From: Synechococcus sp. MW101C3
Lineage (GTDB): Bacteria; Cyanobacteriota; Cyanobacteriia; PCC-6307; Cyanobiaceae
Direction: 5' to 3'
NCBI RefSeq assembly: GCF_002252635.1
Contig: NZ_NQKX01000002.1
Coordinates: 1 to 64,000 of the forward strand
Length of the DNA stretch: 64,000 nucleotides
Part shown: in pieces, positions 4,226-63,780 of the stretch
Position numbering within the stretch: position 1 is the stretch's first letter
How the letters are laid out: each line of letters starts with the position of its first letter
Made by a program: the position numbers and the translations under genes
Notes under the pieces: generated by a model
Databases searched by the model: none
What the model saw: only the letters and a program-made list of their open reading frames with translations
What the model was told of the DNA's origin: nothing

Positions 4226-6511
4226 TCAGTCCTCCGACCAGGGGTCGTCGGCGGCCGCTCTGACGCGGCGGGGCGGCGGTGCCGACGGATCCTCATCGCC
4301 GGAGGGGCGGTAGCGGTTGTCATCGGCGAAGCTCTGGCGACCGCGACTGGAGAGGTTGCGAGGGCTGGCGTCGTCAGCTGCTTCGCCATCCACGTCTCTG
4401 TAGCGGGGCGTGCCGTAGCTGGTGGTGGGATAAGTGGAGGTGCCATAGCTGGGGGGGCTGAAGCTCGGCGGCTTGTAGGTCGGCGAGCCGTAGCTGGGTG
4501 GCCCATAGTCAGTTGGGCCATAGGCCGCCGGAGCGTCGTAGGCGCTGCGGTTCAGCGGTGCGGAGTCCCAGGTCTCACGGCGCGGGCGATCGCGGCCGCC
4601 CGGGCGGTCCCAGTCGTCATCGTCGTCGGCGAACAGATCATCCTTGAGGGAGCCGAGCGTGTTCTTGAGGCCTTGCAGCGGCCCGGCCTCGCTCTTGCGT
4701 TCACTCACCAGCCGCCGGTTGAGCCCATAGAGGGCCTCCTGCAGCTGGCTCACGGCCAGATCCAGTTCCACCGGATCGTCGCCACCCACCAGCATCTGCA
4801 CATCGCGGAGCGCCATCTCCACCGATCGCTGCTGCCGCTCCGCCCCATAGGGCCCCAGCTCCAGCGCCGCATCGCGCAGCCGGCGCTCGGCCTGGGCCAC
4901 CAGCGTCTGGGCGCGGTTGCGGCGGTCCACCTCGGCCCGCTTGCGCCGGTCTTCCACCGCCTTGCGTTCCGCCTCCTCCAGCAGGGCGTTGATCTCGTCC
5001 TCGCTGAGGTTCGAGCCCCCCTGGATGCTGACGCTCTGCTGCCGGCCGGTGGTGCGGTCGGTGGCCGACACCTGCAGCAGCCCGTTGGCATCGATGTCGA
5101 AGGACACCTGCACCTGAGGCACACCACGGGGAGCGGGAGGGATGCCGGAGAGGCGGAAGCGGCCCAGTGATTTGTTGTCGGCCGCCATCTGCCTCTCGCC
5201 CTGCACCACGTGCACCTCCACCGCCGACTGGTTGGCCTCCGACGTGCTGAACACGTCGGAGCGGCGCACCGGGATCGCGGTGTTGCGCGGAATCAGCACC
5301 TTCATCACACCGCCGATCGTTTCCAGTCCCAGCGAGAGGGGGGTGACGTCATTGAGCATCAGGTCGCGCAGTTCACCGGTGAGGATGCCGGCCTGCACAG
5401 CCGCGCCGATGGCGACCACCTCATCGGGATTCACCGACTGGCAGGGCTCGCGCGGGATGAGGGTGCGCACCATGTCCTGCACCATCGGCATGCGGGTGGA
5501 GCCGCCCACCAGCACCACATCGTCGATCTCTTCGGCGGCCATGCCCGCATCCCGCAGGGCGCGCTGCACCGGCCGCAGCAGTCGGTCGAGCAGATCGGGG
5601 CAAAGCGCTTCGAACTGGCGGCGCTCCAGCACCACCTCGATGTGCAGTGGTCCTTCCGGACCGGTGGCGATGAACGGCAGGGACACCGGGGTGCTCGCCA
5701 CCCCGGAGAGCTCCTGCTTCGCCTTCTCGGCCGCCTCGGTGAGGCGCTGCAGTGCCTGTCTGTCGCGGCGCAGGTCGATGCCGTTGCTGCTCAGGAAGCC
5801 GTCGGCGAGCCAGTCGACGATGCGGCGGTCCCAGTCGTTGCCGCCCAGCTGAGTGTCGCCGCTCGTGGATTTGACGTCGAAGACGCCATTGGCGATGCGC
5901 AGCAGTGAGACGTCAAAGGTTCCGCCGCCGAGGTCGAACACCAGCACCCGCTTCACCAGGCTGCGATCGAAGCCATAGGCCAGGGCCGCCGCCGTGGGCT
6001 CATTGAGAATGCGCTCCACCGTGAGCCCCGCCAGGCGGCCGGCGTCGCGGGTGGCCTGCCGCTGGGCATCGTTGAAATAAGCAGGAACGGTGATCACCGC
6101 CGCTTCCACCGGTTCGCCGAGATAGGTGGCGGCATCGTCCACCAGCTTGCGCAGGATGCAGGCCAGCAGCTCTTCGGGCGCGTATTCCCGCTCGGTGGCA
6201 GGGCAGACAGCCCGCACGTTGCCCTGGTCGTTGGCACGCACGGTGTAGGGCACGGCCAGGCTGTCGTCGTCGAGCTCGTCCCAGCTGCGGCCCACGAAAC
6301 GCTTCAGGTTGGCGAAGGTGTTGCGGGGATTCAGCACCAGCTGGCGCCGGGCCGGTTGGCCCACCAGCAGCTCCTGGTCACGGTTGAAGCCCACCACCGA
6401 TGGGGTGGTGCGTGTGCCCTCGGCATTGGCGATCACCTGGGGACGGCCGCCCTCCAGAACCGCCACCACCGAGTTGGTGGTGCCCAGATCGATGCCGACG
6501 ATCCGACCCAT
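4226..6511 (-). CDS. dnaK: Hsp70 chaperone, long DnaK3-like form
   Basis: A 761-residue Hsp70. The nucleotide-binding domain shows GIDLGTTNSVVAV (5-17), FDLGGGTFDVSLL (about 192) and VLVGGSTRMPMVQ; the substrate domain shows NDVTPLSLGLETIGG. Common DnaK proteins are about 635 residues; here an extra tail of more than 100 residues carries Pro/Tyr/Ser/Gly-rich repeats of the type YGxPxY at about 655-710 and then an acidic end. A long divergent C-terminus and a dnaJ gene immediately downstream are features of cyanobacterial DnaK3. It heads the dnaK-dnaJ-DUF3110-murQ operon and is divergent from pstC. Confidence 0.95.
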   Translation of the reverse strand: MGRIVGIDLGTTNSVVAVLEGGRPQVIANAEGTRTTPSVVGFNRDQELLVGQPARRQLVLNPRNTFANLKRFVGRSWDELDDDSLAVPYTVRANDQGNVRAVCPATEREYAPEELLACILRKLVDDAATYLGEPVEAAVITVPAYFNDAQRQATRDAGRLAGLTVERILNEPTAAALAYGFDRSLVKRVLVFDLGGGTFDVSLLRIANGVFDVKSTSGDTQLGGNDWDRRIVDWLADGFLSSNGIDLRRDRQALQRLTEAAEKAKQELSGVASTPVSLPFIATGPEGPLHIEVVLERRQFEALCPDLLDRLLRPVQRALRDAGMAAEEIDDVVLVGGSTRMPMVQDMVRTLIPREPCQSVNPDEVVAIGAAVQAGILTGELRDLMLNDVTPLSLGLETIGGVMKVLIPRNTAIPVRRSDVFSTSEANQSAVEVHVVQGERQMAADNKSLGRFRLSGIPPAPRGVPQVQVSFDIDANGLLQVSATDRTTGRQQSVSIQGGSNLSEDEINALLEEAERKAVEDRRKRAEVDRRNRAQTLVAQAERRLRDAALELGPYGAERQQRSVEMALRDVQMLVGGDDPVELDLAVSQLQEALYGLNRRLVSERKSEAGPLQGLKNTLGSLKDDLFADDDDDWDRPGGRDRPRRETWDSAPLNRSAYDAPAAYGPTDYGPPSYGSPTYKPPSFSPPSYGTSTYPTTSYGTPRYRDVDGEAADDASPRNLSSRGRQSFADDNRYRPSGDEDPSAPPPRRVRAAADDPWSED

Positions 6512-51945: not shown

Positions 51946-51990
51946 TCGGGGCGACAGGATTCGAACCTGCGACCTAGTGCTCCCAAAGCT
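51946..51990 (-). other. attachment scar: 3' half of tRNA-Pro(UGG)
   Basis: The minus strand reads GCTTTGGGAGCACTAGGTCG followed by CAGGTTCGAATCCTGTCGCCCCGA: the anticodon loop (TTTGGGA, anticodon UGG), 3' anticodon strand, T arm and 3' acceptor strand of tRNA-Pro, ending with discriminator A at 51946. The D arm and 5' acceptor strand are missing; the sequence to the right is unrelated. The break within the anticodon stem-loop is where tyrosine recombinases typically cross over. Confidence 0.88.
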
Positions 51991-52197
51991 CTTATGTTAG
52001 GCCTGCCTCAGTTTTTGCAATCACTTGAGTTCCCTCCTCAAGCCACTGCTGTCACTGCCTTTTGGGCTGCCTGTGGTTGCCAAGTTCTGGCTGGCTATGC
52101 CAGACTTTGTGGATGATTCTCTTGCGGATTATCTTGCAAGTGCGTCGTTCTGCCTGATTGTCTGGATCCTGTGCCGAAGTCCCAAGCCGGCAGCCGC

Positions 52198-53463
52198 ATG
52201 GCAAGAGATGCAAGAGATCGCGATTGGGTGACAGCCTTGCGCTTGTCGCTGAAATCCGACCTGGGCCCCCGGAGTGGCTGGACCGTTTCGGAGATGCGTG
52301 GACGGGTCCTGCTCAATCTTTCGGCTGGGGCCGCTGGTGGAACACGCCAACAGCGGGTTTTGCCCATGGCCTGGGCTGCGACTGAGCGACAGCGGATTCA
52401 CACGGCTGTTCTCGCCATCCACAAGGCCTTTGGGGAAGGCGTACCGCTGGATTTGGCAATTCAGGCGAGCAACTCAACCCCAGGCGAGGACGTTGCCATT
52501 GGTAATGGAGCTTCCCCTTTGGACGTCGACTGGCCCTCACTCATTGAGGGTTTCAGGGAGTACAAGCTGAGTAGTGGAGCTATCAAGCCATCAACCTGGC
52601 AGAGCATCTACCGCAGGCGTATGGCAGCCATCCTCGAGGCCGCCGGAGGGAAGCGGCGTCCGGTCTCCCCCAAACAACTCCTGGAAACGATCGTTGGTGC
52701 CTGGAAGGATCGACCAGGGACCCGGGGACGACAGCTTCAGGTCCAGCTCACCGCCGCCTTACTCCGATGGGGCGTGGATTCCGAGCGGCTACAGCCCCAC
52801 TGGGCGCCACCCCTGGATCTTTCTGTCTATGTAGGCAGAAGGCGGGTGAGCAGCAGCATCACCACCCCGATCGAGGTAGAGCACATCCTGCAACTCGTTG
52901 CTGCTATCCCCGACGAACGCTGGCGTCTTGCTTTTCAGCTGATGGCTGCCTACGGACTGCGCCCCGAGGAATTGCAGCACCTGGAGCATCGGCAGGGTCA
53001 GCTCTGGACTACCTATCAGAAGGTGTCTAGTCGTGGACGGACTCGTCCTCGACTTTTGCGAGTGCTTCCCTGCGATGACTGGGCTGTGTCTTGGCAGCTG
53101 GAGAGGGTGTTTCGTCCTCAGTTGATGCCGCCGATGCGACCGGGCCACGGTGCTGAGGACTTCGGGACTTATATGCGTCGTCGCTCTCTCTGGAGGAACT
53201 TGCGCCTCCAGTACGAATCCTCGGGTGAGAAGTTGGTGCTCTACTCCTGCCGACACGGCTATGCCCACCGCGCTCATGTTGTGTGCGACCTGCCACCCAA
53301 GGTGGTGGCTGCGGCGATGGGGCACACACTGGAAACCCACCTGGCGGCCTACAGCCGATGGTGTGGTGACGACGTGGTGGATGACGCTTTCGCCAAGGCA
53401 GAGCAGAGGTTGGGCCGGGGCCTACGCGCTCAGATCTCTGCGATGCAATACCGCACGGCTTGA
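52198..53463 (+). CDS. tyrosine recombinase/phage integrase
   Basis: A 421-residue integrase. The C-terminal catalytic domain has the Arg box FQLMAAYGLRPEELQHLEH (about 250), box II YSCRHGYAHRAH with His and Arg (about 350) and MGHTLETHLAAYSRW carrying the catalytic Tyr (about 384). The N-terminal part contains the core-binding helix region (WPSLIEGFREYKLSSGAIKPSTWQSIYRRRMAAIL). It lies 200 bp inside the tRNA-Pro scar and points away from it, the usual arrangement for a recombinase that recognises this att site. GTG at 52171 is an alternative start. It overlaps the PIN gene by 34 bp (convergent). Confidence 0.92.
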   Translation: MARDARDRDWVTALRLSLKSDLGPRSGWTVSEMRGRVLLNLSAGAAGGTRQQRVLPMAWAATERQRIHTAVLAIHKAFGEGVPLDLAIQASNSTPGEDVAIGNGASPLDVDWPSLIEGFREYKLSSGAIKPSTWQSIYRRRMAAILEAAGGKRRPVSPKQLLETIVGAWKDRPGTRGRQLQVQLTAALLRWGVDSERLQPHWAPPLDLSVYVGRRRVSSSITTPIEVEHILQLVAAIPDERWRLAFQLMAAYGLRPEELQHLEHRQGQLWTTYQKVSSRGRTRPRLLRVLPCDDWAVSWQLERVFRPQLMPPMRPGHGAEDFGTYMRRRSLWRNLRLQYESSGEKLVLYSCRHGYAHRAHVVCDLPPKVVAAAMGHTLETHLAAYSRWCGDDVVDDAFAKAEQRLGRGLRAQISAMQYRTA

Positions 53464-53999
53464 GAGAACCTGCTCAAGCCTTGTTCCGCCATGGTCGCCA
53501 AGTACTCCTCGACTGTTTTGGGAGGATTCTTCAGGCTGGCTCGGTGCAGTCGCATCGCCGTGCAGACTCTCGCGCTATCCAGATTCAACTGATCCACCAG
53601 AAACGGATCGGGATGGCAGGCGCCAATCCCATAGCTCGCCAAGGCTTGCTCCGGGAAGTCATCCAGGTTGAAGGTGAGGATCAGATCGGCCCCGCACTTG
53701 ATGGCGGCGGCTAGGACATGGCGGTCGTCCGGATCAGGTAGCTCCAGGGCTGGAATCAGGGTCTGATGGCCATCCACCAGCGCATCGCGCACGTGAGCAT
53801 TCATCAGCGAGCGGGTGCGCTCCAGTTGCTGTTTGGGCAGATCAGGCCGGTTCCGCAGTACTGCTGTGATCCACTCGTCGTGAATCTGGTCGCTCCATCG
53901 CGCCTGGTAGAGATCCGTGAGGGCCAGTCGCATCAGCAGATCGCGAAGGGGAGCCGGATAGAGAACGCACGCGTCGTAGACGACGGTGAGGCGATTCAC
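53430..53999 (-). CDS. PIN-domain ribonuclease toxin
   Basis: A 189-residue PIN protein of the RSP_2648-like group. The acidic metal-binding residues are visible in order: VVYDACVLYPAPLRD, IHDEWITAVLRNRPDL, ELPDPDDRHVLAAAIKCGADLILTFNLDDFP. The C-terminal 55 residues (NPPKTVEEYLATMAEQGLSRF) are a helix typical of this group. GTG at 53999 starts one base after the antitoxin stop, so the pair is translated together. The toxin should cleave RNA when the antitoxin is lost and so stabilise the element. Confidence 0.9.
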   Translation of the reverse strand: MNRLTVVYDACVLYPAPLRDLLMRLALTDLYQARWSDQIHDEWITAVLRNRPDLPKQQLERTRSLMNAHVRDALVDGHQTLIPALELPDPDDRHVLAAAIKCGADLILTFNLDDFPEQALASYGIGACHPDPFLVDQLNLDSARVCTAMRLHRASLKNPPKTVEEYLATMAEQGLSRFSQAVRYCIAEI

Positions 54000-54000
54000 C

Positions 54001-54474
54001 TCAGTAGCCCATGCCCAGCTCTTGGGCCTGAGCTGCCAACTCATCGAGGGCTGCGGCACGCTGCTGATCGATGGCGTGCTTGTACGCCATCAGGTCGGCC
54101 GTGCGAATGCGCCGATGGGTACCGACCTTGCGGAAAGGGATCTCCCCTTGCTCTAGGCGCTCGATCAGGAACGGCCGTGACACATTCAGGAGATCAGCGG
54201 CTTGCTGGGTCCTGAGCTCGGCGTGCACCGGAACCAGCGTGACGGCATTGCCCTTGGCCATCTGCACCAGGATTCCCTGCAGCAACTCCAGTGCCGCAAC
54301 CGGGATGGGGACGGACGCGTGCTGGCCACCTTCCAGATCCAGGGAGAGGCTGGCTTGACGCAGGCCAAGGCTGGTACGGAGGCAGGAGAGATCGCGCAGG
54401 CTTGCTTCTGCGGCCTTGGCCGCCTCAGCCGTGGGGATCACGGGCTCAATTGAACTGGGAAAAGCGACGGCCAT
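54001..54474 (-). CDS. excisionase-fold HTH antitoxin
   Basis: A 157-residue protein whose C-terminal half carries a MerR/excisionase-like helix-turn-helix: LRTQQAADLLNVSRPFLIERLEQGEIPFRKVGTHRRIRTADLMAYK. A Leu-rich N-terminal helix region precedes it. Location directly upstream of a PIN toxin gene, one base apart, identifies it as the antitoxin that binds its own promoter. The start at ATG 54474 is preferred because the longer upstream frame has no coding character. Confidence 0.88.
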   Translation of the reverse strand: MAVAFPSSIEPVIPTAEAAKAAEASLRDLSCLRTSLGLRQASLSLDLEGGQHASVPIPVAALELLQGILVQMAKGNAVTLVPVHAELRTQQAADLLNVSRPFLIERLEQGEIPFRKVGTHRRIRTADLMAYKHAIDQQRAAALDELAAQAQELGMGY

Positions 54475-54613
54475 GGACCAGGAGGAGGGGAAGGCCACTC
54501 GAACCTTAATCGAAATAAACGGAGCAAACGCAGCTTCCGCAAGAGCGTTGGGCTGGCGCGTCCTATTCCTGCTCAGATCTATGCATGGTCCGATTGTGTC
54601 CGGCTCCGCTTCT

Positions 54614-54988
54614 ATGCGCCTGCTGCTGCTCGCCGCGTTTGTGATGGCAACCGCGCTGATCCCGTTGCCCGCCCAAGCCGCGGGTGACACCCTGGGCCAA
54701 TCGGTGGAGCTGCTGCAGCGGTTTCCCTTTCGGCCCGACTGTGACGGCAACACCCAGGAGATCGTGGCCTGCCAGTGGCGCCAGCGGAATCAGGATGACG
54801 CCACGCTGCAGCGCCTGCTGAGTAGTACAGCCCTGCTGGAGCAATGGCGCGCCAGCCGCCGACGAGTCTGTGAGCTAGCCGCAACGAAGGCGGAGGGGGG
54901 CTCAATTCACCCCATCGTCTGGCTGAGCTGCGAGACCAGCGTCAATGCAGCATTGATCCAGCAGATCAGCCAGCCCCTGGTCCCCTGA
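54614..54988 (+). CDS. exported LprI/DUF1311-like small protein (cargo)
   Basis: A 124-residue protein with a clear signal peptide (MRLLLLAAFVMATALIPLPAQA). The mature part resembles the LprI N-terminal (DUF1311) family: DCDGNTQEIVACQWRQRNQDDATLQRLL, WRASRRRVCELAATKAEGGSIHPIVWLSCE, with four Cys that could form two disulfides. Some family members inhibit lysozyme. As cargo in a mobile element it might protect cell wall from phage or grazer lysozymes, but that is speculation. ATG 54581 is an alternative start. Confidence 0.75.
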   Translation: MRLLLLAAFVMATALIPLPAQAAGDTLGQSVELLQRFPFRPDCDGNTQEIVACQWRQRNQDDATLQRLLSSTALLEQWRASRRRVCELAATKAEGGSIHPIVWLSCETSVNAALIQQISQPLVP

Positions 54989-56956: not shown

Positions 56957-57220
56957 ATGTCATGGCGAGCACTCTTTACTGCACATGGCCTGCTTGTTGA
57001 AGGGTGCAATCTGACGGGGGGCAGTAGCATGAAGGCTGCCGAACATTGTATGAGTTGGTGGATTAGCAGCTCCGCCTGGGCTGGTAATAACGGCGGTGAT
57101 CGGGGGCGTGATCGGCAGGTCGTTCCACTACTGAGTGGGTGGCACAGGTCGTTACCGCTGGATGGACCGTCACCGTTCATCAATGCCGCCGAAGGCACCG
57201 CCATCGGAGGGGCCCGCTGA
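56957..57220 (+). CDS. possible small leader gene coupled to the primase
   Basis: An 87-residue frame from ATG 56957 whose stop TGA shares its last base with the primase ATG (TGATG at 57218-57222), as in the regulator operon. The product lacks recognisable features and is rich in Gly/Ser/Arg. The junction is the only support; it may be chance. Confidence 0.3.
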   Translation: MSWRALFTAHGLLVEGCNLTGGSSMKAAEHCMSWWISSSAWAGNNGGDRGRDRQVVPLLSGWHRSLPLDGPSPFINAAEGTAIGGAR

Positions 57221-60200
57221 TGGACGACCTCAACCAGAGCAACGCGGCGGGACTGGGGGATGCCACCGTGCGGCCCACCACCGGGGTGGCAATAGCCGAG
57301 CTACCGCATGAGAGAGCAAGGCCAAGAGCCTCGTCGACCTGGTGGAGGGACATCGCCGTGGCCTTGCGGGTAGATGTGGAGGAGGAGGAGAAGACAAGGG
57401 AAGCGGAGAAATTCGGCCTCTGGATGGAGAAGTACATCCGCCTAGAGGAGTCGCTGCGGCACATCAAGTTGTTGGGTCTGAGGGATGACGAGGTGCGGTT
57501 CCGAACGGTGCCCGTCAACCCAGAACACAAAAGCCTCCGCCGCAACTTCAAAGGCGAGGAGGGCGATCGAGATATTGCTAAAACAATCGTGGAAGAGCTA
57601 GCGCCTCTGGTGATGAATGGTGCTGCTGCCTTTGTGCTGCCAAATCCTGGCGGCAACAAGAAAGCCGACATAACCGAGGTCAGATCGATCAGGGCTGAGT
57701 GGGACGACCAGCCAATCGAATGGCAGATCGAGGGGTGGAAGGTGTTAGGCCTGCCCAAGCCCACATTCCAGGTAGCCACTGGAGGGAAAAGCGTCCACAG
57801 CTACTGGGTGCTCACCGAGGGGGTAGATCCTTTGCGGGGGGAGCTGGCAGCACGCCGGGTGGTGAAGCGGGCCACGGATGCGGGCTTTCCCTCGGATCCG
57901 GCGGTGGTGGGCAGGTCGCAGCCGATGCGGCTGGCCGGATCGCTCTATATCGGCAAGCCCTCCAAGGAGGGGCAGCCGAAGAACCCGCTGGCGGGTAAGC
58001 CCATTGGCTATGCCCAGATTTTGGAAGGAGCGGATCCGGAGCGGCGTTACACAATTGAGGAGCTTGAGGCGGTGCTGCCGGAGCTCACCAAGGGCGAATC
58101 CGAGGAGGAGGGTCGGGTACGGGCCGCTGCAGGCCACGTGTCGCACTCAGGCGAAGAAGATCCCTGTCCGGTTTGTGGTCGGGATTCCGACGCCGATTGC
58201 ACGATCTTCGACAACCCAGATGGGGTGGTGGTGGTGTGCCATCGCGGGAAGAGCTTTAACCCGCCGACGGAACTGACCAAGGGTGATGTGATCGCCGGGA
58301 AGGTGGATCCTGCGACTCGGTGGGCGTACGCCGGGGAATCGGCCACGGGGAGCTGGGGACGACCGGCCGCGAAATTCAAGGAGGTGGGGCCGGAGGTGGC
58401 TCTGTTTAATGCCCGTCAGATGGAACAAGCCCTGACTGAGGCGCTGGCCACTCCGCGGCCGAAGCGAGATGAGGGGGCAGTGGCTTCGACTCCAGAGGAG
58501 GTGTCCACTCAAGAAGAAGCTCCTGCTCTAGGGGTCACCGGCAACCCCGACATCGATTGGAAGACGGCGGTTTACTGGGCGGAGAGCGAAGAGGATCGAG
58601 CCGCCCTAGGAGCAGCAGGTTTTGCCATCGCTGAAGGGATGGAGGGCAAGGACTTCCAGAGACGAACGGTGTTCCTGTGTTGGCCCAGCCGAGCGATGGT
58701 GAAAGTGCCACAGGCATTGAAGAAAGTCGCGGTGAAGTTTGCTGGCGTTGGTGGGGATCCTCGTCTGATTTACATGCCTTGTGAGGTGCCGCAGACCCGT
58801 GGTGGGTTGGACCCTGACGCGAGCGCGAACACACCGTCCAGCTTCCTCAAGCGACATGGGGGGAAGGAGCTGCTGCTGCTTGCAAGTCAGGCGGAGATGT
58901 GCTGCAAAAGAGATGAAGGCCGGCTGAAGTGGTGCTGGGATGGGTCACGCAAAAAGCCGAAGTTGCCGGTTCAGGTCACTATTGCAATGTCCGTTTTCAA
59001 GGATCAGTTCGTCGTTGATGGGCATGAGGAGCGCCTCTACGAATGGGAGGGTGATCACTGGTTGCCGTTGCCGGGAAAAGCGAGCACGGCGATTCAGCAG
59101 CCTCTGCAGCGGTGGGTGGCGGCGATGCAATGGAGCAACGATCTCACTCTTGACAGCAAGGCGAGGATCGGATTGGTCGCCGAGTTGCGCGATCACCCGA
59201 GTCGGCGGGCATTGTCTCTTGATCCGGTAGTTCAGCACGGGGTGCTGCCCATGCGAAATGGGGTTGTCAGGCTGTTGGATGGGGTGCTGCTGCCCCATGA
59301 CCGGAAGTACGGCAACACCTGGGTGCTGCCATACGAGTTCAGGCCGGACGAGCTGCCTGTGAAGATCCTCGCTTGCATCGAGCAGTTGCTGCCAAAGCCG
59401 CATCAGCAGCGGTTGTTTCGGGCGGCATGTGCAGCCGCGTTGCGGCGGCTGGGGGCTAAGGGCTTCGTGGAGCTGACCGGCGTCGGTGACTCCGGCAAGT
59501 CGGTGCTGGCGCGGCTGCTGGAAGCACTGGTTGGGAGGGAATGTACGGCCAGCAGTCAGCTCCATCTAATGGAGGACAGGAACCAGCGGTTCGAGACGTA
59601 TAAGGCGCGGGGTGCGGCGCTGCTGCAGTTTGCGGAGAGCCAGGACTATGCAGGACCGCTGGAGCGGCTGAAAGCCTTCACCGGGGGGGACTCCATCGTG
59701 GCTGAACGCAAGAACTCGACCGAGAAGTATGACTTCACCTTTCGCGGCTTGGTGCTGTTAGTGGGGAACTCAGCGGTCAAGGCGAAGGACGACTCTTCGG
59801 CGGTATTTAATCGAAGGAGGAGTATCCACCTTGATCAGCCTATCCCTGTGGCAGACCGGAGGGACATGTTGTCCTGGCGGGTTGATCACTGGGAAGGAGA
59901 GTTGGCGGACGAGCTGGGGGCCTTCGTGCCATGGGTGTTGGCCATGGATCCTCAGGAGGCAAGGGAGGCCATGGAGGAATCTGGGGGGCTGGCTGAGCTT
60001 GATGGGTTGCTGGATATGGAGCTGACTAACCCACTGGCGGATTGGGCGGAGCAGTATCTGATCTTCGATGACACTCCAGATGAGAAGGGGAAGTATCACG
60101 GGCTAAAGATCGGTACCATCACCTCCAGTGAGGGTTCCATGTTCGATGCGCCGAATCACAATATCTCGATGTTCGCTTACCCCGCCTACCGCGGCTGGAT

Positions 60201-60450
60201 GGAGGATTCTGGCCTCAAGGGCAAAGAGTTGGCTCTAAGCCGGTTCAAAACCGCGCTTGTGAGTCTGTTGCGTGATCGATTGGGGCTACCACTGCCGAAG
60301 GGTTCAATGAACGTGAGTCCTTACAGGACAGGGTATGGGGCACGGATCCCGATGCTGAGGATGCGGAACGGAAATGTGGACGCTGATGTCCCTGGAGTAA
60401 TTCGGTTTGCACTTCAGCGGAAGCTCGGCGGCCATTCGATGGAAGCGTAA
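57220..60450 (+). CDS. phage/satellite primase-SF3 helicase
   Basis: A 1,076-residue replication protein. N-terminal third (about 130-270): archaeo-eukaryotic primase-like features, RAEWDDQPIEWQIEGWKVLGLPKPTFQVATGGKSVHSYWVL and DPAVVGRSQPMRLAGSLYIGKP. A zinc-binding module (CPVCGRDSDADC...VVVCHRG, about 315-338). C-terminal half: a D5/P4-type superfamily 3 helicase with Walker A TGVGDSGKS (about 752-760), Walker B ALLQFAE (about 800), motif C LLVGNSA (about 846) and the arginine finger-like FNRRRS. It should melt and prime the element's own origin. The ATG at 57220 is preferred over 57139. Confidence 0.9.
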   Translation: MDDLNQSNAAGLGDATVRPTTGVAIAELPHERARPRASSTWWRDIAVALRVDVEEEEKTREAEKFGLWMEKYIRLEESLRHIKLLGLRDDEVRFRTVPVNPEHKSLRRNFKGEEGDRDIAKTIVEELAPLVMNGAAAFVLPNPGGNKKADITEVRSIRAEWDDQPIEWQIEGWKVLGLPKPTFQVATGGKSVHSYWVLTEGVDPLRGELAARRVVKRATDAGFPSDPAVVGRSQPMRLAGSLYIGKPSKEGQPKNPLAGKPIGYAQILEGADPERRYTIEELEAVLPELTKGESEEEGRVRAAAGHVSHSGEEDPCPVCGRDSDADCTIFDNPDGVVVVCHRGKSFNPPTELTKGDVIAGKVDPATRWAYAGESATGSWGRPAAKFKEVGPEVALFNARQMEQALTEALATPRPKRDEGAVASTPEEVSTQEEAPALGVTGNPDIDWKTAVYWAESEEDRAALGAAGFAIAEGMEGKDFQRRTVFLCWPSRAMVKVPQALKKVAVKFAGVGGDPRLIYMPCEVPQTRGGLDPDASANTPSSFLKRHGGKELLLLASQAEMCCKRDEGRLKWCWDGSRKKPKLPVQVTIAMSVFKDQFVVDGHEERLYEWEGDHWLPLPGKASTAIQQPLQRWVAAMQWSNDLTLDSKARIGLVAELRDHPSRRALSLDPVVQHGVLPMRNGVVRLLDGVLLPHDRKYGNTWVLPYEFRPDELPVKILACIEQLLPKPHQQRLFRAACAAALRRLGAKGFVELTGVGDSGKSVLARLLEALVGRECTASSQLHLMEDRNQRFETYKARGAALLQFAESQDYAGPLERLKAFTGGDSIVAERKNSTEKYDFTFRGLVLLVGNSAVKAKDDSSAVFNRRRSIHLDQPIPVADRRDMLSWRVDHWEGELADELGAFVPWVLAMDPQEAREAMEESGGLAELDGLLDMELTNPLADWAEQYLIFDDTPDEKGKYHGLKIGTITSSEGSMFDAPNHNISMFAYPAYRGWMEDSGLKGKELALSRFKTALVSLLRDRLGLPLPKGSMNVSPYRTGYGARIPMLRMRNGNVDADVPGVIRFALQRKLGGHSMEA

Positions 60451-60502: not shown

Positions 60503-60776
60503 GTGACGGATCCCGGCAAGGGGAGATGGGTTCGTTATGTACTTGTGACGTTAAGAACCCAGTCGTGAACAGGGATGTGACGGATGTGACGCTTTTCTTC
60601 TATTGAGATTTTGATTGGGAAAGAAAGGGAGAGAAAGAAAGGGGGTTGGTGACGAGTATGTCTACCCCTGAGTGGGGCCGATGGAGTTGGGAATATCCAT
60701 CACATCCACCACACCCCCTGGTAGGCCTGGGTTTTTGACGTCACCTATCCGTCACGCCCCCGTCACCACCCATCAC
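60503..60776. repeat. GTGACG iteron array, candidate replication origin
   Basis: GTGACG occurs at 60503, 60545, 60577, 60586 and 60649 on the plus strand; the last two of the left group form the tandem 9-mer GATGTGACG (60574-60582, 60583-60591). The inverted form CGTCAC occurs at 60739, 60750 and 60761, exactly 11 bp apart, with CATCAC at 60771. A purine- and AT-rich tract (about 60592-60645) lies between the two groups. It begins 50 bp after the primase-helicase stop, where PICI-type elements carry their origin: two iteron sets around an AT-rich melting region. Confidence 0.7.
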
Positions 60777-61226: not shown

Positions 61227-61691
61227 ATGACCTCAGCAACCCTGAAACCCAGGCAAAGGAAGGCCGTTTTGATGACGGCTGAGGGGATGCAGCTGCGTGA
61301 AATTGCGCAGGAGCTGGGTATTGGCTACACGACGCTGCTGTCATGGGGGCGGAACCCTGCGTATGTGCGAGCGGTTGATGAGGCCTTGCAGCACATTGAA
61401 TCTGAGGCAACGAAGGAGTTGCAGCAGGGCTACGGAGATGCGGTTCAAAAAGCCAGAGAGCTGCTGCAGTCACAATCCGAATCGATTGCTTTAGGGGCTG
61501 CAAAGCTGATTATTAACACCATGAACCATGTGGTCGAGCGTCGTGAGTCTGCTACTCGGTGGGCAGAACTATCGCAGCAGATTGAGGGCTTAGAGAAGCG
61601 TCTGGCACGCAACGAGGTCATGGCCTCGGCGCATGACGTGGACCTGGGCGAAAGGGCGATAGAAGCGCACAGCATTGCTAGTCGGGGATAG
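61227..61691 (+). CDS. TerS-like HTH protein (small terminase candidate)
   Basis: A 154-residue protein. The N-terminus is a helix-turn-helix of the kind in phage small terminases (TLKPRQRKAVLMTAEGMQLREIAQELGIGYTTLLSWGRNPAYVRAVDEAL), followed by a long alpha-helical, partly coiled-coil segment (IESEATKELQQGYGDAVQKARELL...) and a C-terminal helix (WAELSQQIEGLEKRLARNEV). That layout (HTH plus oligomerisation helices) fits TerS, which chooses the DNA to be packaged. No large terminase is present, so it would act on a helper phage's packaging machine. A plain regulator is the alternative. Confidence 0.65.
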   Translation: MTSATLKPRQRKAVLMTAEGMQLREIAQELGIGYTTLLSWGRNPAYVRAVDEALQHIESEATKELQQGYGDAVQKARELLQSQSESIALGAAKLIINTMNHVVERRESATRWAELSQQIEGLEKRLARNEVMASAHDVDLGERAIEAHSIASRG

Positions 61692-62970: not shown

Positions 62971-63780
62971 TCAGGCCGCTCTCCACTGCTGGAGGACTTC
63001 CAGGGGCGTACGCCCCTGGAGCGCCGAATGCGGTCTGTAGGTGTTGTACTCGATTCGGTGCTGTTCCGCCAACAGCCTGGCTTCCGCCACCGTTGCGAAC
63101 AGCTCGATATTCAGGAACTCATCCCGGAAGCGGCCGTTGAACGACTCCACGAATGGATTCTCCCAGGGCGAACCTGGCTCGATGTAAGCCGTACACAAAC
63201 CGCTGCCTGTGCACCACTCCTGCAGGGCATGAGCAATGAACTCAGGCCCATTGTCCATTCGCAGATAGGTGGGTGCCGGAAACAGCCTGAGCAACTCCTC
63301 GATCGTGTCGATCACATCTACAGCCTTGCAGCGGCGGCCGACACGAATGGCCAGGCAGACCCGGCTGTATTCATCCAGCACGTTCAGGAACTTCAGCGTC
63401 CGTCCATCCATCGTCTGGTCAAACTGGAAGTCGATCGCCCAAACCTGGTGGGGGTATTCGGCCCGCAGGAGCTCTCTGGAGCCGCTGGCAGTGCGGGAAC
63501 GCTTGCGCCGGCGCGGCAGGGGCCGCTGGAGGCCCTCCTCCCGCCAGATCCGTTGCACCCGCTTGTGGTTGACACTCCAGCCCTCCAGCCGCAGCCGGCG
63601 GTAGACCAGACGCCGGCCCCAGCGCACATGGCGCCGGGCCAGCTCACGGATCCGCCGGCGGAGCTTCTGCTCCTCGATCGCCGCCACCGGCATGGGCCGG
63701 CGCTGGGTGTTGCGGTTCTGGCCGGCCAGCCGGCAGGCCCGTCTCTGGGAGACCCGGAATTGATCCTGCAGAACCATCAC
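62971..63780 (-). CDS. IS3 transposase OrfB (DDE integrase core)
   Basis: 269 residues from ATG 63780; the natural product is probably an OrfAB fusion made by -1 frameshifting. An N-terminal HTH_21 region (RVSQRRACRLAGQNRNTQRR, RRHVRWGRRLVYRRLRLEGWSVNHKRVQRIWREEGL) precedes the rve catalytic core with the DDE residues in VWAIDFQFDQTMDG, YLRMDNGPEFIAHAL and NPFVESFNGRFRDEF. RPHSALQGRTPLEVL closes it. The reading frame is intact, so the IS may be active. Confidence 0.93.
   Translation of the reverse strand: MMVLQDQFRVSQRRACRLAGQNRNTQRRPMPVAAIEEQKLRRRIRELARRHVRWGRRLVYRRLRLEGWSVNHKRVQRIWREEGLQRPLPRRRKRSRTASGSRELLRAEYPHQVWAIDFQFDQTMDGRTLKFLNVLDEYSRVCLAIRVGRRCKAVDVIDTIEELLRLFPAPTYLRMDNGPEFIAHALQEWCTGSGLCTAYIEPGSPWENPFVESFNGRFRDEFLNIELFATVAEARLLAEQHRIEYNTYRPHSALQGRTPLEVLQQWRAA

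Follow-up and report, generated by a model that had tools for sequence, protein, structure and literature searches.

Downstream of a primase-helicase gene in Synechococcus sp. MW101C3, the hexamer GTGACG recurs on both strands within 274 bp (positions 60503-60776), raising the question of what this cluster does and which protein reads it. The window referred to below is the whole stretch of DNA analysed, 64,000 nucleotides of contig NZ_NQKX01000002.1. The initial annotation took the cluster for the probable replication origin of a mobile element. Conserved iterons, linkage to Rep and the layout of the site support this reading at the level of sequence, and the stretch 60503-60776 very likely serves a 48.2-kb island as its replication origin; the island's own Rep would bind the iterons, and helicases facing apart would be loaded at the two arms of the site.

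Exact GTGACG copies start at 60503, 60545, 60577, 60586 and 60649 on the plus strand and at 60739, 60750 and 60761 on the minus strand, that is, five direct copies followed by three inverted ones; the copy at 60503 lies 53 bp past the rep stop codon. This census matches the one originally reported and is far above chance expectation: in 5,000 dinucleotide shuffles, GTGACG occurred a mean of 0.19 times and at most 3 times per 274 bp, compared to the 8 observed, and the commonest hexamer reached a maximum of 6 per 274 bp in 2,000 shuffles of the 777-bp interval between rep and TerS. Two previously described regularities, a period of 11 bp within the inverted trio and a tandem 9-mer at 60577/60586, are exact in the sequence.

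The initial annotation had tied its reading to the presence of iterons in relatives with the same helicase. Two close relatives, a single-contig genome (G090) and Cyanobium sp. CACIAM 14 (G273), encode Reps 71-77% identical to that of the window, and both keep the repeats in the same place relative to rep. Leaving aside the copy at 60649, the exact iterons are 93% identical in G273, versus 70% for unclassified spacer, and 86% identical in G090 (aligned inverted), versus 62%. The 60649 copy, which lies in the core, retains 3 of 6 bases in both relatives and is therefore probably a chance occurrence outside the iteron set, among which it had originally been counted.

The presence of two opposed groups was confirmed, but degenerate copies that complete a symmetric plan (60707, 60698 and 60534/60523) had been overlooked. 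Both arms share the spacing 11-11-32-9, in which an outer trio in 11-bp steps is followed, 32 bp start to start, by an inner 9-bp pair bordering the core. CACCAC at 60707 and CATCAC at 60698 mirror the 9-bp pair at 60577/60586, and the copies at 60534/60523, which match at 4 of 6 bases, are the counterpart of the 11-bp trio in the right arm. The outer trio is exact and the inner pair degenerate in the right arm; the inner pair is exact and two of the three outer copies are degenerate in the left arm, where the G090 counterparts at 4613, 4624 and 4635 all read GTGAC or GTGAT. The core flanked by these opposed arms has a GC content of 46% as a whole and of 38-42% in 50-bp windows from 60575 (its left part), versus about 55-65% in the surroundings. 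The features of the site, together with the adjoining gene, are as follows (G123 is a more distant relative described below).

57220..60450, plus strand: rep, primase-helicase and likely initiator (D5_N, DUF5906, Foldseek)
60503..60508, plus strand: leftmost outer GTGACG, exact; also in G090 (L003, 4593) and G273 (L031, 11525)
60523..60550, plus strand: left outer trio in 11-bp steps; GAGATG at 60523 and GTTATG at 60534 degenerate, GTGACG at 60545 exact
60553..60563, plus strand: box AAGAACCCAGT in the spacer separating outer from inner iterons; shared with G090 and G123
60577..60591, plus strand: left inner pair GTGACGGATGTGACG, 9 bp apart, exact; 9-bp inner pairs in most relatives
60592..60609, plus strand: pyrimidine element CTTTTCTTCTATTGAGAT at the start of the core; 95-100% identical in G273 and G090 (inverted)
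60610..60697, no strand assigned: purine-rich tract of the core, probable melting region; 38-42% GC near its left end; holds the non-conserved 60649 copy
60698..60712, minus strand: right inner pair, GTGATG/GTGGTG, 9 bp apart, degenerate; 32 bp from the outer trio, mirrors 60577/60586
60726..60736, minus strand: right spacer box AAAAACCCAGG; mirror of 60553-60563
60739..60766, minus strand: right outer trio, exact GTGACG in 11-bp steps; kept exactly in G090 (4828, 4839, 4850)
60771..60776, minus strand: fourth right outer copy, GTGATG, read from the sequence; GTGATG follows in G273 too

Comparison with G090 also revealed a rearrangement within the site. The G090 segment matching 60545-60766 lies on the opposite strand at 75% identity, the right flank is collinear and the left flank is back in the normal orientation, and the core alone, including the tract at 60610-60697, aligns with a score of 55 reversed versus 14 forward. 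It is the ~220-bp core that is inverted, together with its arms, which gives the site the appearance of two-fold symmetry. Because the arms are inverted repeats, the core could flip via recombination or template switching between them, and the persistence of the flipped form in G090 suggests that function is independent of core orientation. An assembly error may also account for the inverted core in G090.

The Rep encoded next to the site consists of an AEP-like N-terminal part, a helicase recognised by Pfam as D5_N plus DUF5906, and a C-terminal winged-helix-like domain, and its ATG start at 57220 agrees with the starts in both close relatives. A structure model of the last 492 residues had a mean pLDDT of 71, with about 80-89 for the winged-helix-like part, and a Foldseek search with this model of the helicase and C-terminus retrieved D5/E5/AsfvPrimPol proteins and the SaPI5 primase-helicase (7ola/7om0, E about 1e-11). 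Pfam and Foldseek thus both place Rep within the D5_N plus SF3/AAA helicase fold of SaPI5-type/D5 primase-helicases, although a sequence profile search of the PDB with Rep gave no match. Neither single-protein nor profile searches of viral contigs found relatives of Rep. At its N-terminus, Rep is similar to the cyanophage S-2L primase-polymerase, whereas several relatives have a TOPRIM-like DUF3854 there, which the window Rep lacks, indicating that the primase was swapped without separating the helicase from the origin. A single CGTCAC occurs at 57168-57173, ~50 bp upstream of the rep start codon, and G273 has one in the corresponding position (L031, 8027); this could possibly be a site for self-regulation of rep.

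The link between the iteron site and this Rep, proposed in the initial annotation, holds, and so does the layout beside distant Reps, with a different word. Genes for Reps with 38-42% identity in the helicase carry opposed iterons of their own at the 3' end, built on words (GGAACGG, CAAACGG) that differ from GTGACG: ten copies of GGAACGG (four direct, six inverted) in G123 and nine of CAAACG in G161. The right-arm spacing of G123 (9, 31, 11, 10, 11) is similar to that of the window. The repeats are wholly within the rep reading frame in G123 and partly so in G161; the reading frame of the window, G090 and G273 ends ahead of the first repeat copy or right at it. The G123 core also looks reversed, at p = 0.03, a level at which we do not claim repeated core inversion.

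The DNA around the rep stop was scanned for any hexamer with n direct copies followed by m inverted ones inside 320 bp, and the result compared with 200 shuffles. In a first set of 22 loci, which was partly exploratory, 9 (window included) beat all 200 shuffles and 4 more stood at 2-3/200. A search with tblastn identified related Reps on cyanobacterial plasmids. GTGACG itself occurs nine times beside the related Rep on Nostoc HK-01 plasmid7, 11 times on Gloeothece pP742404 and nine times on Oscillatoria pOSC7112.03, and GTGATG seven times on Allocoleopsis pMIC7113.06; on pP742404 and pMIC7113.06, this rep encodes the sole annotated protein resembling a replication initiator. When the test was fixed and applied to 12 further plasmid reps, 10 beat all 200 shuffles (several of these with GTGACG as their word), one stood at 1/200 and one failed, compared with 0/12 for upstream control windows at the same loci. 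P4 crr was likewise picked up, as were sites located 3' of the primase in one Serratia phage and in two PICI-like elements of E. coli that encode capsids. The scan gave no significant site on plasmids L118, L119 and L144 or in phages S-EIV1 (L125) and L126, and a match to an AT-rich word on plasmid L122 is probably spurious. Out of sample, 11 remote picocyanobacterial helicases were nearly all negative (the best two at 1/200 shuffles), and the layout rule therefore does not cover all D5-like helicases. Cumulative GC-skew minima of three plasmids did not fall at the iterons.

Two plasmids with a related rep have further features. A protelomerase-family gene adjoins the related rep with its GTGACG site in Gloeothece verrucosa Cy782202 (L133, 6583-9075; NC_014534), a plasmid recorded as linear at 474 kb that is possibly hairpin-ended. 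The 22.6-kb pP742404 (L128, NC_011732) encodes several TIR-domain proteins and a CBASS phospholipase: a small plasmid devoted to defence.

Centromeres and operators typically contain iterated repeats in helical phase, and the cluster might accordingly be a parS/parC-like partition site or an operator for rep or the genes downstream. On pMIC7113.06, rep has a ParM gene in its vicinity. No partition gene was seen close to the site in the window, however; moreover, the site follows rep on unrelated backbones, and opposed arms around an AT tract are what is found at known PICI origins (PMC6092414) and P4 crr. We therefore consider a centromere or operator very improbable as the main function, while an additional role of the origin in self-regulation of rep is possible.

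The iteron sites compared here appear to share a grammar: outer iterons in steps of 10-12 bp, then a spacer of ~32 bp that contains an AACCC box, then inner iterons in a 9-bp step. Spacings between same-strand neighbours in 18 elements were 9 bp in 30 cases, 10-12 bp in 51, 22 bp in 10 and 31-34 bp in 20, counts that are approximate because the pattern used for G215 held both words, so that this element was counted on both strands, and because a few windows had stray copies. AACC or ACCC occurs in the spacers of 16 of 23 arms versus a shuffle mean of 3.8, a significance inflated by the choice of the pattern after the sequences had been viewed. The box is partly coding (peptide ETLA in several plasmids), and part of its conservation in such copies may be at the protein level; non-coding arms have it too, as does the opposite strand. 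Since the box persists where the iteron word differs (G123, G161), some partner distinct from the iteron-binding domain may recognise it, though this is a guess.

The element that this origin would serve is delimited by a 44-bp fragment of tRNA-Pro, located by exact pattern matching, which has just two copies in the genome and encloses a 48.2-kb island inserted in tRNA-Pro. The relevant features are as follows.

51946..51989, no strand assigned: attL, 3' part of tRNA-Pro, 44 bp; exact match to attR at 100135-100178, on the same contig outside the window
52171..53463, plus strand: tyrosine integrase of the island (PHROG 1 integrase)
61227..61691, plus strand: TerS-like small terminase (PHROG 7344 and 2538; E about 1e-10 and 1e-9)

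The island encodes the tyrosine integrase, excisionase-like HTH (HTH_17) proteins, a BRO antirepressor, Rep and TerS, followed by a heavy-metal cargo that comprises a CusA/CzcA transporter, two metal P-type ATPases, a CueO-like multicopper oxidase, MerR/CadR regulators and an Nramp transporter. Tycheposons, as proposed for marine picocyanobacteria, are tRNA-targeted tyrosine-recombinase islands with cargo; with its tRNA-Pro insertion, tyrosine integrase and metal-resistance genes, the island is a possible candidate for that class. The G090 island (46.6 kb, in tRNA-Leu) has the same Rep and TerS, the latter 80% identical, and much of the same cargo; its integrase is a different one, 26% identical to that of the window over part of its length. 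That nearly the same Rep-origin-TerS block occurs with very different integrases (52171-53463; L032, 7416-8570) and tRNA genes (Pro, Leu) suggests integrase exchange between islands sharing it. A tRNA-Met adjoins the G273 integrase. An IS3-type transposase (62971-63780) lies between TerS and a TIGR03299 gene and is probably a later insertion, as the flanking blocks are contiguous in G090. At 53430-54753, beside the integrase, a PIN-domain protein overlaps an HTH_17/excisionase-like gene, possibly forming a toxin-antitoxin pair. No large terminase (Terminase_6N) was found in the genome, and the element is therefore satellite-like, yet its size greatly exceeds that of a typical PICI; in the subset of island ORFs examined, none was recognised as a phage structural or lytic gene.

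The proximity of TerS raises the possibility that the repeats are instead a pac- or cos-like packaging site to which TerS binds, marking island DNA for a helper phage. TerS lies 450 bp downstream in the window and immediately downstream in G090, and a hexamer scan cannot discriminate between DNA-binding proteins. The same site occurs, however, with no TerS found nearby in the G123 and G161 elements and on fully annotated plasmids, and it follows rep, often within the rep gene itself. Given this distribution, a packaging site is exceedingly improbable.

Among characterised systems, the origin most closely recalls those of PICIs and SaPIs. The PICI origin comprises two iteron sets flanking an AT-rich region directly 3' of rep, a layout held to be exclusive to PICIs (Fillol-Salom 2018, PMC6092414), and SaPI origins likewise sit directly 3' of rep (PMC7581432). 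The site at 60503-60776 has the same position, immediately 3' of its initiator gene, and the same two iteron sets around an AT-rich tract, next to a Rep with the SaPI5 primase-helicase fold; it differs in its two-fold symmetric arms with a fixed plan, in its 48-kb host element, and in lying inside the rep coding sequence in many relatives. The PICI label given in the initial annotation accordingly stands for the origin layout and for the integrase, primase-helicase and TerS content, but not for size, PICIs being typically about 12-15 kb. As for PICI module genes, the integrase, primase-helicase, HTH_17/excisionase-like and BRO antirepressor genes are present, with no Stl or AlpA shown.

A second parallel is satellite P4, whose alpha protein belongs to the same helicase superfamily and whose crr, directly 3' of alpha, contains opposed type-1 repeats, some 9 bp apart; an alpha-type initiator with opposed iterons 3' of its gene is thus common to both. 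Since crr is a cis-required region and the P4 origin (ori1) is annotated about 4.6 kb away, the repeats here might by the same token be an enhancer or copy-control site, with the true start elsewhere in the island. P4 differs in having these two separate annotated sites and another word. No GTGAC cluster other than 60503-60776 was found in the 48-kb island, and the origins of PICIs and SaPIs are a single site 3' of rep (PMC6092414, PMC7581432), making a crr-like accessory role unlikely and favouring the cluster itself as the origin.

SCCmec Cch2 (PMC7581432) is also a D5_N-type self-loading helicase, and its C-terminal domain binds repeats 3' of its gene. Its binding site differs in comprising only three iterons (AAGTG), and deletion of the inverted repeats left binding unaffected. 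CyRepA1 and CyRepA2 are cyanobacterial plasmid initiators with DUF3854, as in several of the relatives here, but their helicase is described as DEXDc rather than D5/DUF5906, and the two papers on them describe no iterons (PMC10079941, PMC9978351).

The iterons, the 11-11-32-9 symmetry of the arms, the excess conservation, the linkage to the Rep family and the core inversion in one relative can be read directly from the DNA, and from work on SaPIs, PICIs and P4 we infer a course of events comprising binding, melting, a bidirectional start, excision, and packaging or mobilisation. Rep would bind the GTGACG iterons, the probable contact being the winged-helix domain at its C-terminus, as SaPI Rep and Cch2 bind their sites via their C-terminal domain (PMC7581432); residues of the Rep domain that might explain the change of iteron word were sought, and none was clear. 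One Rep multimer would assemble on each mirror-image arm, the AT/purine core between them would melt, and two helicases would be loaded facing apart, so that the excised circle could be copied bidirectionally. Copying would take place during mobilisation with a helper phage, in keeping with the presence of TerS, the sole hint of induction and packaging by such a phage, and the failure to find a large terminase.

Given that the layout occurs beside D5/DUF5906 Reps on many cyanobacterial plasmids as well as on a 48-kb island, it appears to characterise the initiator family and not PICIs in particular. It is evenly balanced, in our judgement, whether the islands and plasmids of cyanobacteria have in common a two-fold symmetric origin module that works in either orientation and is often placed in the 3' coding end of rep, with the PICI layout being general to D5-type replicons. 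Such a module would consist of outer iterons, the AACCC box, 9-bp inner iterons and a melting core, followed by the mirror image of these parts. The helicase end and the origin would then travel as one cassette, as the tolerance of the module for word change and core inversion implies, with exchange of the primase domain, the integrase and the cargo. Natural inversion of the core and the changes of word offer a direct way to test how symmetric and how specific such origins are, and the sites could serve as the basis of narrow-specificity cyanobacterial vectors.
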